NCBI RefSeq assembly: GCF_002138415.1
Contig: NZ_CP015612.1
Location: 3,264,001-3,328,000, forward strand
Reading direction: 5' to 3'
Length of the DNA: 64,000 nucleotides
DNA from: Stenotrophomonas maltophilia
GTDB lineage: Bacteria; Pseudomonadota; Gammaproteobacteria; Xanthomonadales; Xanthomonadaceae
The first letter of the stretch is position 1; the number at the start of each line of letters is the position of its first letter. The translations under genes were made by a program, and so were the position numbers. Below the pieces are notes generated by a model. The model saw only the letters and a program-made list of their open reading frames with translations, was not told the DNA's origin and searched no databases. Shown here in pieces: positions 16,634-56,786 of this stretch.

Positions 16634-17175
16634 TCACACGGCAGGCCCGCCCTGCCCCCGCCAGCGGCCGCTTCGCGCGGTCGCTGGTCCTGCTTGGCGT
16701 GCTGGTCAGTGCCAATGCAGCGGCACAGGCACCGGCGTGCAAGCTGCTGACCGACGAACACGGGTTGTGGCCGCTGCCCAACTGCGAAGTGGTCGATCAC
16801 CGGCCGAAGATCAGTGCCGACACCTTGAAGGACCTGAATTACGACGACCATGGCCTGGCCGTGGTGTACGCCGACCAGGGCTTCCACTACGTCAACCGCA
16901 AGGGCCGCAGCCTGCCGGTACTGACCTGGGACAACGGTCCGGAAACACCGCAGGAAGGCCTGCTGCGCGCCCGTGTCGGCAACCGCGTCGGCTACTTCGA
17001 CCTGAAGTTCCGCCAGGTGGTACCCGGCACCTTCGATTTCGGGTGGCCGTTCCAGGATGGCGTGGCCGAGGTCTGCAACGGCTGCCGGCGCGGCACGCCG
17101 GATGCCGATGGCCACACGCCGATGGAAGGCGGAGAGCGGTTCCGCATCGACCGCTCTGGCCGTCGGGTGAAGTAG
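16630..17175 (+). CDS. WG-repeat-containing exported protein
   Basis: Protein of 181 aa with a signal peptide (about residues 14-32) and repeats of the WG type, such as GLAVVYADQGFHYVNRKGRS and RVGNRVGYFDLKFRQVVPG. It has three cysteines after the signal plus a CNGC pair, so disulfides in the periplasm are possible. Function unknown. The GTG start overlaps the TGA of the alkaline phosphatase gene, so translation is probably coupled. This suggests an accessory or inhibitor role for the phosphatase, which is only inference from position. Confidence 0.75.
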   Translation: MITRQARPAPASGRFARSLVLLGVLVSANAAAQAPACKLLTDEHGLWPLPNCEVVDHRPKISADTLKDLNYDDHGLAVVYADQGFHYVNRKGRSLPVLTWDNGPETPQEGLLRARVGNRVGYFDLKFRQVVPGTFDFGWPFQDGVAEVCNGCRRGTPDADGHTPMEGGERFRIDRSGRRVK

Positions 17176-17183
17176 GTTTTTCG

Positions 17184-17384
17184 GCAGGGCTGCGCCCTGC
17201 ACCTGCCGAAGCCGAAGCCAAATCGAGATCAAAAGCGGCTCTGGTTTTCTGTGAGTTGGGCGGGGCGGTGTGGGTGGTCAGGACACGCCGTAAACCCGTC
17301 CATGGGGGCTCGATGGCGCCATCCATGGCGCCAACGGTCCTGCCCACCCACACCGCCCCACCCCCGACAGATTTCCGGTGACGG
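17184..17384 (+). repeat. Composite long-hairpin element, copy 1
   Basis: It starts with the palindrome GCAGGGCTGCGCCCTGC (17184-17200) and a spacer ending CTGGTTTTCTGTGAGTTGG. The main stem has arms of 23 nt (17262-17284 and 17337-17359) with one mismatch, enclosing a 52-nt loop. Inside the loop TGGCGCCAT and ATGGCGCCA form a 9-bp inner stem around CC. The right border is CGACAGATTTCCGG. The arms differ in sequence from copies 2 and 3 yet still pair. Confidence 0.75.
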
Positions 17385-17438
17385 TTGGACCATCCACGCC
17401 ATGCGTGGATCAGATCTGTCAGATATCGAATTGAATCC

Positions 17439-17479
17439 GGGGTCAGATCCGTTTTCCGCAGGAAAACGGATCTGACCCC
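17439..17479. repeat. Perfect 19-bp palindrome, GGGGTCAGATCC type
   Basis: The arms GGGGTCAGATCCGTTTTCC (17439-17457) and its exact complement (17461-17479) surround a GCA loop. The same GGGGTCAG head is found in the palindrome interrupted by the insertion sequence at 60093-61440, so it is an interspersed repeat. A degenerate REP lies just upstream (about 17391-17413). With copies 1 and 2 of the composite element it fills the 546-bp gene-free gap before tilS. Confidence 0.75.
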
Positions 17480-17493
17480 ATCAACATGCCCAA

Positions 17494-17698
17494 CAGCTCG
17501 CAGGAAACTGTCGAAGGCGGGGTGGGTCCGGTTGCGGGAGTGTCCGCGGCATGGATGCCGCGGCCAAGCCCCCATGGACGGGTTAACGGCGTCTCCCGCA
17601 ACCGGACCCACCCCGCCAACCCTCAGGAAACCAGCTGTTGCTGTTGCTTCGGCCGTTGCCGTTGCTTGCGCGTCTGCGGGTGCAGGGCGCAGCCCTGC
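17494..17698 (-). repeat. Composite long-hairpin element, copy 2
   Basis: Inverted relative to copy 1. The arms are 25 nt and perfectly complementary (17516-17540 and 17593-17617), with the G-rich arm containing GGCGGGGTGGGTCCGG. The loop is again 52 nt. CCGCGGCAT/ATGCCGCGG forms a 9-bp inner stem around two bases. The flank has GTTGCTGTTGC and GTTGCCGTTGC, then the border palindrome GCAGGGCGCAGCCCTGC (17682-17698). tilS starts 24 nt later. Confidence 0.75.
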
Positions 17699-17721
17699 CG
17701 ACCAACCCTATACTTGCCGCC

Positions 17722-19008
17722 GTGACTGCCTTCCCTGCCCTTGTTCCGCTGGATGCGCCGCTGCTGGTGGGCTACAGCGGTGGTATCGACTCCACCGTGC
17801 TGCTGCACTGGCTGTGGCGCTGCGCCCAGGCCTCCGGCACGGCGCTGCGCGCGGTGCACGTGCACCACGGCTTGCAGCCCGATGCGGATGACTGGGTGCT
17901 GCACTGCCAGCAGCAATGCGAGGCCTGGGGCATCGAACTGGCCGTGCATCGCGTGCAGGTCGACAACCGCGCGGGCCTCGGCCTTGAAGGCGCGGCGCGG
18001 CAGGCACGACGCGCCGCGTTCGCGGCGGAACTGCGCGACGGCGAAACGCTGGCACTGGCGCAGCACCTGGACGACCAGGCCGAGACCTTCCTGCTGCGCG
18101 CCCTGCGCGCGTCCGGCGTTGATGGCCTGGCGGCGATGTCCACCCACAGCCGCCTTGGCGAACATCCCTTGTGGCGCCCGCTGCTGGCGGTACCGCGCAG
18201 TGCGCTGATCGACCATGCCCACCAACATGCGCTGCACTGGATCGAAGACCCCAGCAATGGCGACGACCAGGCGGATCGCAACTTCCTGCGCCTGCAGGTG
18301 CTGCCATTGCTGCGCCAACGCTGGCCGCATGCCGCTGCGGCGCTGGCGGGCAGCGCAATGCACTGCGGGCAGACCCGCGAACTGCTCGATGAGGAAGACG
18401 CCGAGCTGATCGCACACCTGGAAGTCGCCCCACGCGTGCTGTCGCTGCAGCTGCTGCGCCAGGTCTCACCGGGCCGTGCCGCACGCGTGCTGCGTGCCTG
18501 GGTGGCCGGCCACGGTGCGGCGCCGCTGCCGGCCACGGTGCTGCAGCAGGCACTGCACGAGCTGCTGCCGGCCGACAACGATCGTCAGGCCCGTGTGAGC
18601 TGGCACGATCACGCGATCCAGCAGTGGCGCGACCACGCCTACCTGCTGCCGGCCCAGCTGCCTGCGCTTCCCCTCCAGTGGCAGGTCGAATGGGATGGAC
18701 GCGCACCGCTGCCGCTGCCCGATGGCGGACAGCTGCGCCTGCAGGGCACCCCGGCCTTCGAACGCCCGCTGCAGGTCCGTGCACGCGTGGGCGGTGAGCG
18801 CATTCTGCTGCCCGGTCGCCAGCATTCGCATGCGCTGAAAGACTGCCTGCAACGCGAACACCTCGCCCCCTGGCGACGCGCGCAGCTGCCGCTGATCTTT
18901 GATGGCCCGCAATTGCTGGCCGCCGCCGACGTGGTCATCGCGGCCCCTCTGCACGCCTGGTTGCAGGCCCATGATGCTCAGCTGCAGTGGCGTCCCGGCG
19001 GCTGGTGA
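17722..19008 (+). CDS. tilS: tRNA(Ile) lysidine synthetase
   Basis: Cytoplasmic enzyme of 428 aa that converts C34 of tRNA-Ile(CAU) to lysidine using ATP and lysine, which is essential for AUA decoding. The PP-loop SGGIDS lies at residues 19-24. HVHHGL and LALAQHLDDQAETFLLR are further N-terminal domain motifs. The C-terminal substrate-binding domains span about 200-428. The GTG at 17722 gives the usual distance to the PP-loop; longer forms would read into the repeat element. xseB starts 36 nt downstream. Confidence 0.95.
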   Translation: MTAFPALVPLDAPLLVGYSGGIDSTVLLHWLWRCAQASGTALRAVHVHHGLQPDADDWVLHCQQQCEAWGIELAVHRVQVDNRAGLGLEGAARQARRAAFAAELRDGETLALAQHLDDQAETFLLRALRASGVDGLAAMSTHSRLGEHPLWRPLLAVPRSALIDHAHQHALHWIEDPSNGDDQADRNFLRLQVLPLLRQRWPHAAAALAGSAMHCGQTRELLDEEDAELIAHLEVAPRVLSLQLLRQVSPGRAARVLRAWVAGHGAAPLPATVLQQALHELLPADNDRQARVSWHDHAIQQWRDHAYLLPAQLPALPLQWQVEWDGRAPLPLPDGGQLRLQGTPAFERPLQVRARVGGERILLPGRQHSHALKDCLQREHLAPWRRAQLPLIFDGPQLLAAADVVIAAPLHAWLQAHDAQLQWRPGGW

Positions 19009-55573: not shown

Positions 55574-55974
55574 CCCCCGGTTCCGACGCCCTGCTGGGCA
55601 TCCACCACGCTGCGCTGATCTGCAGCGACTACGCACGCTCGAAGGACTTCTACGTGCGCATCCTCGGCCTGCGCGTGCTGGCCGAGAACCATCGCGCCGA
55701 GCGCGACTCCTGGAAGCTGGACCTGGCCCTGCCCGACGGCGGCCAGCTGGAGCTGTTCTCCTTCCCCTCACCACCACCGCGCCCCAGCCGCCCCGAAGCC
55801 CAGGGCCTGCGCCACCTCGCGTTCCGGGTGGCTGCACTGGAACCCTTCATCCAGCGCCTGGCCGCGCATGGCGTCGCCTGCGAACCGATCCGCGTGGACG
55901 AATACACCGGCCGCCGCTTCACCTTCTTCGCCGACCCCGACGGCCTGCCGCTGGAGCTGTACGAAGCCGGTTGA
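55570..55974 (+). CDS. VOC family protein (GloA2/YaeR-like)
   Basis: Small glyoxalase-fold protein of 134 aa, closest to the SMU1112c/YaeR (GloA2) group. It has GIHHAALICSDYARSKDFYV at the N-terminus, LPDGGQLELFSFPSPPPRPS in the middle and TFFADPDGLPLELYEAG at the end. The histidine and glutamates fit a metal site. True glyoxalase I activity is unproven. The ATG overlaps the serine hydrolase stop (ATGA), so it is the third gene of that operon. Confidence 0.88.
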   Translation: MTPGSDALLGIHHAALICSDYARSKDFYVRILGLRVLAENHRAERDSWKLDLALPDGGQLELFSFPSPPPRPSRPEAQGLRHLAFRVAALEPFIQRLAAHGVACEPIRVDEYTGRRFTFFADPDGLPLELYEAG

Positions 55975-56063: not shown

Positions 56064-56255
56064 CAGATCGCAGGACTCTGTCGAAGGCGGGGTGGGTCCG
56101 GTTGCGGGGGCGTGAGCCGCATGGATGCGGCGACCGAGCTTACAGGGACGTACTTGCAGCGCCCCCCGCAACCGGACCCACCCCGCCATCCACGGAATGG
56201 CCGCTTTTGCCGTTGCCGTTGCTGTTGCCTCTGCGGGTGCAGGGCGCAGCCCTGC
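56064..56255 (-). repeat. Composite long-hairpin element, copy 3
   Basis: Same orientation and borders as copy 2. The left border is CAGATCGCAGGACTCTGTCG. The arms are 25 nt and perfectly complementary (56086-56110 and 56163-56187), and the loop is again 52 nt. GCCGCAT/ATGCGGC forms the inner stem around two bases. The flank carries GCCGTTGCCGTTGCTGTTGC and the border palindrome GCAGGGCGCAGCCCTGC (56239-56255). It lies about 38 kb from copies 1 and 2. Confidence 0.75.
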
Positions 56256-56342: not shown

Positions 56343-56786
56343 ATGCGCAACACCTTCAAGACCCTGCTGCTGGCACTGCCGCTGTGCCTGGCCGCCCTGT
56401 CGGCGCAGGCCGCCGACGGCGCCGCCGGCCGCTGGAAGACCATCGACGACAAGACCGGCAAGGTGAAGTCGATCGTCGAGATCAGCCAGGCCGCCAATGG
56501 CACGCTGACCGGCAAGGTGGTCGACATCCTGCACTCGGACAAGGGCCCGAACCCGGTCTGCGACGGCTGTGAAGGCGCCAACAGGAACAAGCCGGTGAAG
56601 GGCATGACCATCCTCTGGAACCTGAAGGCCGACGGCGCCAACAAGTGGTCCGGCGGCACCATCCTTGACCCGGCCAACGGCAAGACCTACAAGTCGAAGA
56701 TGGAACTGCAGCCCGGCGGCACCAAGCTGGACGTGTCCGGCTGCATCGCCTTCATCTGCCGCGCGCAGACCTGGCAGCGCGAATAA
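56343..56786 (+). CDS. DUF2147 domain-containing exported protein
   Basis: Exported protein of 147 aa with a signal peptide (1-21, ending AQA). The DUF2147 core spans about 25-147: AGRWKTIDDKTGKVKSIVEI, then a CDGC motif and KPVKGMTILWNLKADG, ending CIAFICRAQTWQRE. The four cysteines may form disulfides. Family function unknown. The ATG has GGGAGGGG upstream. It sits just after the composite repeat and before metG. Confidence 0.9.
   Translation: MRNTFKTLLLALPLCLAALSAQAADGAAGRWKTIDDKTGKVKSIVEISQAANGTLTGKVVDILHSDKGPNPVCDGCEGANRNKPVKGMTILWNLKADGANKWSGGTILDPANGKTYKSKMELQPGGTKLDVSGCIAFICRAQTWQRE

Follow-up and report, generated by a model that had tools for sequence, protein, structure and literature searches.

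Palindromic elements known as YPAL or RU-2 occur in 2 to 144 copies per Yersinia genome (PMC2847712). In the excerpts that we cite here and in the following, they are described as mobile elements that duplicate 3-26 bp of their target, insert in or beside dyad symmetries and have both filled and empty sites, and as 'co-translated' (sic) with upstream genes (PMC2229807). Ysr224 (RF02770), an Rfam family that matches Yersinia-type copies, is listed as temperature-responsive (PMC9029176), and its copies are differently expressed in Y. ruckeri biofilm formation (PMC12112432). A search of the open-licence literature returned no paper that joins YPAL and CsrA.

RNAs that bind the regulator CsrA or its homolog RsmA form a second group of relevance. 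CsrB titrates CsrA through repeated GGA hairpin loops (PMC7652899), a trait that CsrB/CsrC and RsmX/Y/Z share with the element described below; however, they are single many-loop genes, whereas our element occurs in dispersed copies with two loops each, and at most four in a partner hairpin. In Xanthomonas, a published search, as excerpted, reports no CsrB/RsmX/Y/Z homolog (PMC7694677). RsmU of Xanthomonas campestris is an RsmA-binding RNA from a 3' UTR in a genus related to ours, but it is a single locus, reported there to be conserved only in Xanthomonas, and we set it beside our element by its description (PMC7694677). Furthermore, the Rfam clan CL00106 holds both CsrB and TwoAYGGAY (RF01731), a family with two AYGGAY-loop hairpins within an outer stem, resembling our element, in which, however, the second loop base is not limited to Y. 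A 2014 in silico study proposed from motif matches, with validation then pending, that TwoAYGGAY binds CsrA (PMC4333381). Lastly, Stenotrophomonas maltophilia itself harbors the SMAG REPs, described as units of 20-40 bp with a GTAG head, which are palindromic, extragenic and often dimeric.

The window, that is, the whole stretch of 64,000 nucleotides analyzed here (S. maltophilia, contig NZ_CP015612.1, positions 3,264,001-3,328,000), contains three copies of a repeat that recalls all of these systems. On direct reading, all three share a GCAGGGC...GCCCTGC palindrome at one end and CTGTCG at the other, as well as a long outer stem (with arms of 25-34 nt that are 91-100% complementary) that encloses exactly 52 nt, in agreement with a preliminary description of this DNA. 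Copy 2 (17508-17698, plus strand) begins with CTGTCG at 17508-17513 and ends with the palindrome at 17682-17698; its arms (17516-17540 and 17593-17617) are 100% complementary and enclose a 52-nt core (17541-17592, plus strand) with the hexaloops AUGGAU (17551-17556) and AUGGAC (17574-17579). Copy 1 (17184-17370) is its inverted neighbor, as had been recognized, with minus as the sense strand: the 3'-end palindrome lies at 17184-17200 and the CTGTCG end at 17365-17370, and the inverted repeat of outer stem and core (17258-17363, minus strand) consists of arms at 17258-17284 and 17337-17363, 93% complementary with 52 nt between them, and a 52-nt core at 17285-17336 (minus strand) with AUGGAU at 17321-17326 and AUGGAC at 17298-17303, both on the minus strand. 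The preliminary description had let this copy extend to 17384; the copy is real but a little shorter, because its CGACAG ends at 17370. Copy 3 (56078-56255, plus strand) ends with the palindrome at 56239-56255 and has arms at 56077-56110 and 56163-56196 (91% complementary, 52 nt between them), and its core (56111-56162, plus strand) carries AUGGAU at 56121-56126 and AGGGAC at 56144-56149. Its sense strand is likewise plus; the genes on its two sides encode a glyoxalase-family protein (gene end at 55974) and a DUF2147 protein (gene start at 56343). Folded as RNA, the three copies reach z scores of -8.03, -6.93 (outer stem and core of copy 1) and -9.53 below dinucleotide shuffles.

Copies 1 and 2 are separated by a spacer (17371-17507, unstranded), delimited by sequence and inverted repeats, that holds further palindromes. 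We take the one at 17392-17410 to be SMAG-like, and the self-complementary GGGGTCAG... (GGGGTCAGATCC...) palindrome at 17439-17479 would fit GGGGWSAS, the TIR consensus reported for TIRYT tyrosine transposases, of which two families are described in S. maltophilia (PMC3733652). While SMAG-like units thus occur in spacers, the repeat itself differs from SMAG, which has no 52-nt core, and shows neither the GTAG head nor a length of 20-40 bp; the earlier statement that it is not a SMAG repeat is borne out by comparison with the published SMAG traits.

The same description had left the element unnamed. Its core, however, is homologous to YPAL/RU-2, so that one of the refuting outcomes named there, a match to a repeat family already on record, applies in part. 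When aligned, the own-type core and the printed RU-2 of Yersinia pestis are identical in 47 of 52 bases (PMC2759123, as excerpted), and our covariance model, R1, finds two Yersinia similis loci (61.7 and 60.8 bits) with the same flanks as the printed RU-2. Conversely, Ysr224 scores 126-134 bits, with a cut-off of 70, on three loci of the Yersinia type (L271, L316 and L359), and 32-33 bits, under that cut-off, on the antisense of copies 1 and 2 in the window. Our repeats resemble YPAL in their core, their dispersed intergenic placement and the occurrence of filled and empty sites, here at one site, that of copy 3. By contrast, YPAL measures 167-168 bp compared to 178-191 bp in the window copies, and the outer arms are unrelated. 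Moreover, head-to-head pairs prevail in Stenotrophomonas and several other genera, unlike in YPAL, with other repeats between the members in Stenotrophomonas. Judging from these comparisons, the window repeats appear to be a paired, highly amplified branch of the YPAL-type mobile elements.

This branch is large. R1 matches copy 1 at G000:C1:3281271-3281350 (minus strand), copy 2 with 101.9 bits and copy 3 with 97.9 bits, and, from 150 scored candidates, yields at least 141 own-genome matches, which, together with strong covariation, answers the check that had been suggested with a covariance model. Within the genus, 29 of 39 genomes have matches, from a single one up to at least 120, while the R1 search of the remaining 10 gave no match; the element is therefore dispensable. 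Under stricter filters, by which weak matches are lost, 42 of 149 genomes (15 of 46 genera) are positive in the taxonomic family, 76 of 370 genomes (64 of 272 genera) in the class sample, with at most 12 matches listed per genome, and 44 of 397 genomes in the phylum sample, all 44 of which belong to the class. The core pattern was also found in at least 120 stretches of named genomes. Among the 80 listed with titles are Stenotrophomonas, Lysobacter, Luteimonas, Arenimonas, Thermomonas, Rheinheimera, Marinobacter, Methylomonas, Methylotuvimicrobium, Pseudomonas, Halopseudomonas, Idiomarina, Yersinia, Pantoea and numerous MAGs of Gammaproteobacteria; one record is titled simply Proteobacteria, and another is a Klebsiella MAG. 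We take the genera of these matches to belong to Gammaproteobacteria. Searches of window positions 17184-17698 against phages and of copy 2 against plasmids gave no match. One viral contig (IMG/VR) has the core pattern, with a Yersinia-type (YPAL) copy at L359 6178-6295.

The 52-nt core folds into two small hairpins. Searching the own genome with the pattern N10-ANGGAN-N17-ANGGAN-N13, which forces A and GGA, yields 55 cores with outer stems in 40 stretches, 46 of them distinct. Helix 1 comprises 5-7 bp and is sometimes closed by tandem GA pairs, whereas helix 2 consists of three base pairs, a 5-nt bulge and three further base pairs, capped by the hexaloop ANGGA(C/U). The 'CATCCATG core' of the preliminary description is the apex of the first small hairpin; the second one, with the loop ANGGAC, had been overlooked. 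Paired changes in the inner stems, already pointed out between the window copies and visible in their sequences, extend through the family: in the own genome, GC and CG alternate at 8-19, 9-18 and 29-49, UA and CG at 31-42, and AU and CG at 32-41. In 51 distinct own-genome sequences, 95.4% of cells pair and both partners vary in 20 of 28 pairs, for a covariation score of 0.502 compared to 0.125 in shuffled and at most 0.095 in slid alignments. Across genomes, pairing reaches 97.0% of cells, covariation extends to 26 of 28 base pairs and the score is 0.804 (0.174 shuffled, at most 0.13 slid), in an alignment fitted to the covariance model, which favors the model. The outer arms vary between genomes yet still pair, over 26.8 bp on average (76 distinct stems of at least 12 bp).

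The mismatches in these outer stems reveal the strand on which the structure is maintained. With arms extended by Watson-Crick pairs only, the 76 distinct stems, which are not fully independent, contain 72 G-T and 10 A-C mismatches (binomial 1e-12), and those of the own genome 15 and 4. Within the core, mismatches are rare (one G-T and one A-C in the own genome, seven and one in other genomes). Because G-T exceeds A-C by 72 to 10, selection acts on the strand that bears the GGA loops, and the selected form is RNA or one strand of single-stranded DNA. The earlier claim of selection on a folded form is thereby upheld, while its 'DNA cruciform or RNA' narrows to this strand. That the element acts as double-stranded DNA, as a cruciform or a G-quadruplex, is accordingly very improbable: its long, near-perfect palindromes and the insertion of other mobile elements in the core or at its edge would suit such a role, but the mismatch ratio is unexpected if both strands were to pair. 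A G-quadruplex, as had been suggested from the G-rich arm, finds no support as a trait of the family, as the outer arms in other genera are unrelated and several of them, by reading, are not G-rich.

The loops are likewise conserved. As pattern searches force A.GGA., we rely on the model-based count alone, in which, of 77 hits from 69 loci outside the training set, 73 have ANGGAN as loop 1 and 71 as loop 2, with N free; no pattern beyond the model was imposed, although the loci were fetched as model matches, so that the count leans towards the model. In own-genome stretches, ANGGAN is found in loop 1 of 78 and in loop 2 of 81 out of 89; most of the others are insertions or weak hits. Hexaloop 1 is AUGGAU in all 46 distinct cores (A.GGA. 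forced by the pattern). The two hexaloops stand 17 nt apart. Outside the loops, four unpaired core bases, U3, A27, U44 and C47, are near-invariant, in 70-72 of 72 distinct cores; together with the YUYRC bulge, they go beyond the needs of a plain CsrA site.

ANGGA within a hairpin loop is a feature of CsrA/RsmA-binding RNAs. RsmE contacts the A and the GGA of an ANGGAN hexaloop, one CsrA dimer bridges sites 10-63 nt apart, and the SELEX consensus is RUACARGGAUGU, with most ligands having a six-nt loop, AC/GU pairing and stems of at most four base pairs (PMC7652899, as excerpted). Hairpin 2 has a UAC/GUA stem in 25 of the 46 distinct cores of the own genome and in 38 of the 72 distinct cores from elsewhere, and in this form is close to the SELEX consensus. 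The own genome has one csrA gene, whose 67-residue product shares 88% identity with E. coli CsrA in an alignment of 52 residues. Of the 370 genomes in the class sample, 324 encode CsrA, namely 75 of the 76 with the element compared to 249 of the 294 others (Fisher 3e-4; table read by eye, G321 being the sole positive genome without it), a co-occurrence confounded by reduced genomes that lack both.

From these likenesses, we slightly favor the view that the repeats are mobile non-coding palindromic elements of the YPAL kind, whose transcript is a predicted CsrA/RsmA-binding module. Several observations count against this reading: helix 1, with 5-7 bp, is longer than most SELEX ligand stems, Ysr224 is modeled on the strand opposite to the GGA strand, CsrA by itself does not account for the near-invariant bases outside the loops, and the cores show no sense bias towards the gene on their 5' side. 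In addition, RsmU of Xanthomonas is reported to be bound by RsmA in vitro even with changes in each of its four predicted GGA motifs (PMC7694677, as excerpted), so that RsmA binding in the family of Xanthomonas and Stenotrophomonas involves more than GGA hairpins.

Despite the shared architecture, the element is not a member of TwoAYGGAY by Rfam score. RF01731 gives 41.0 bits on copy 2, with a cut-off of 43; in the own genome, there are four matches at E 0.001, the best with 41 bits and none above the cut-off, and elsewhere the best match has 41.7 bits (L051), with none of 40 loci of other genomes reaching 43. In the Rfam alignment, the second hairpin of TwoAYGGAY has a long stem without the 5-nt bulge, unlike our element. 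Rfam also returned microRNA-like matches, which we discarded, as they are below the cut-off and any long stem yields them.

Neighboring copies are typically arranged head-to-head. With a limit of 2 kb, the own-genome cores form 92 clusters: 47 minus-plus, 44 single and one minus-plus-minus, the third core of which is 1941 bp away. All 47 two-member clusters are thus head-to-head, and none is plus-minus or tandem. In named genomes, 16 of 21 non-overlapping neighbors within 500 bp are minus-plus, five are on the same strand and none is plus-minus; one pair overlaps. Three of the five same-strand neighbors belong to a direct tandem array of four cores that recur about every 180 bp in a Saccharophagus MAG (L248 3123-3737, plus strand).

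Even where no second core is recognizable, a partner hairpin may be present. A flank search without a GGA requirement, performed on 91 of 106 plus all 77 hits (20 of 168 dropped near a locus end), found long-stem partners on the 5' side of 39 of 148 hits and on the 3' side of one, whereby both members of a pair can count. Of these 39 partners, 36 have their GGA hairpins on the strand opposite to that of the hit and three on neither strand; not one has them on the strand of the hit. Some have loops of 56-129 nt, with GGA hairpins as the main common trait, and the partner at L094 has four. In ten chosen loops, nine of which had been pre-filtered for an ANGGA or CAGGA motif (all except the nested module), GGA occurs in 16 of 20 local hairpins, compared to a mean of 1.28 (maximum 6) in 1000 shuffles and none in antisense. 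This nested module, X, is inserted in loop 1 of several copies in the own genome and two relatives, and adds two GGA hairpins.

The site of copy 3 bears on the mobility of these elements. Thirteen of 20 fetched orthologous loci are readable, with the core present in nine and absent in four. Intergenic regions with the core span 364-597 bp, represent several subtypes and are interrupted in three of nine cases, while those without it span 88, 123, 126 and 155 bp. The longest core-less locus retains the element's 3' part and looks like a deletion. The flanks are too divergent to define a target site duplication.

These patterns also suit another reading, namely that the core is a single-strand DNA recognition or processing site of a mobilizing enzyme (REP/RAYT, IS200/IS605-like), with loops read by this enzyme and no role for CsrA. 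The elements are dispersed and patchy, with one orthologous site found both with and without the core; a strand-specific fold would suit single-strand enzymes too; the unpaired bases conserved outside the loops could be read by such an enzyme; and the head-to-head pairing resembles a transposition unit. Nevertheless, we consider this reading rather improbable, since partner subfamilies retain the GGA hairpins while losing the other conserved bases, and since the second loop base is free exactly where CsrA tolerates change. Likewise, no linked transposase belonging to the element emerged from the six large spacers of the own genome, which are occupied by foreign insertion sequences, an aldolase gene or a frame without Pfam match.

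An autonomous transposon between paired copies was considered and rejected, as none of these six spacers (935-1531 bp) contains a transposase of its own. Three of them (L131, L134 and L135; G000:C1, about 469438-470890, 3473311-3474729 and 3672772-3674280) share a segment of about 1.27 kb, 98.6-99.1% identical between them, that encodes an rve-type transposase (by a Pfam search of L131). This segment lies where the outer stem of the left copy meets its core, as if this insertion sequence targeted the hairpin structure. At L019, one of its ends abuts another copy. The remaining spacers hold a DDE_Tnp_1 transposase beside a GGGGTCGG-type palindrome (L133 1721-2935, minus strand), a KDPG/KHG aldolase gene (L132) and an open frame without Pfam match (L136).

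The gene context was derived with a purpose-written gene caller, and a degenerate partner accompanies some of the own-genome 'single' sites. Across genomes, the 3'-side gene points towards the element in 55 of 74 cases, as it does in 34 of 52 own singles, and divergent settings are few (5 of 74 and 6 of 52). There is no sense bias to the 5'-side gene in either set (43 of 74 and 30 of 52 in sense), and we therefore rejected gene-sense orientation as proof of transcription within 3' UTRs. In codirectional settings, cores are more often antisense (26 to 14 across genomes, 16 to 12 in own singles).

This placement brings up the explanation that the repeats are REP/MITE-like 3'-end structures, in which a strong stem protects or ends mRNAs and the loops are incidental. 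It is consistent with elements that adjoin stop codons, with the frequent facing orientation of the 3'-side gene and with the scarcity of divergent settings. Yet a nuclease-blocking stem has no need of invariant loops, the two small hairpins covary internally, and no terminator with a T-run is found in the window pair, which makes this explanation unlikely.

CsrB/CsrC and RsmX/Y/Z genes carry their own promoter and intrinsic terminator. By contrast, a search of 17150-17760, covering the pair of copies 1 and 2, detected no promoter by the sigma-70 consensus and no intrinsic terminator. For this reason, if the elements are predicted RsmA-binding modules as we favor, they are probably transcribed in Stenotrophomonas by read-through from neighboring genes, and the transcript may be processed or left as a 3' UTR. 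The long outer stem, free in sequence as long as pairing is kept, would hold the 52-nt core with its two ANGGAN hexaloops, both of which could be gripped by one RsmA dimer. More than 100 copies would then dock or titrate RsmA, as the many-loop RNAs CsrB and RsmZ do. As a tentative extension, which we regard as possible but doubtful, selfish repeats may carry regulator-binding sites as cargo: the more than 100 copies would jointly constitute an RsmA antagonist in Xanthomonadaceae, with titration set by read-through and copy number, and YPAL would be the same device. This would link YPAL-type mobile palindromic repeats with TwoAYGGAY-type CsrA RNAs, which have so far been listed apart. If binding holds true, what seemed to be genomic litter would serve to buffer a master regulator, tuned by copy number, across many Gammaproteobacteria, possibly including genera without a known classical antagonist RNA.

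Finally, further palindromes lie in and around some of the elements. Palindromic modules of two kinds are nested in the hexaloops, one in hexaloop 1 at L012, L013, L015, L023, L029, L222 and L226, and the other in loop 2 at L222 and L228, the latter looking unlike a CsrA site. In genome G036, four dispersed copies (L089, L094, L099 and L100) have similar 31-bp stems, and this composite is flanked by additional inverted palindromes, resulting in nested inverted repeats.
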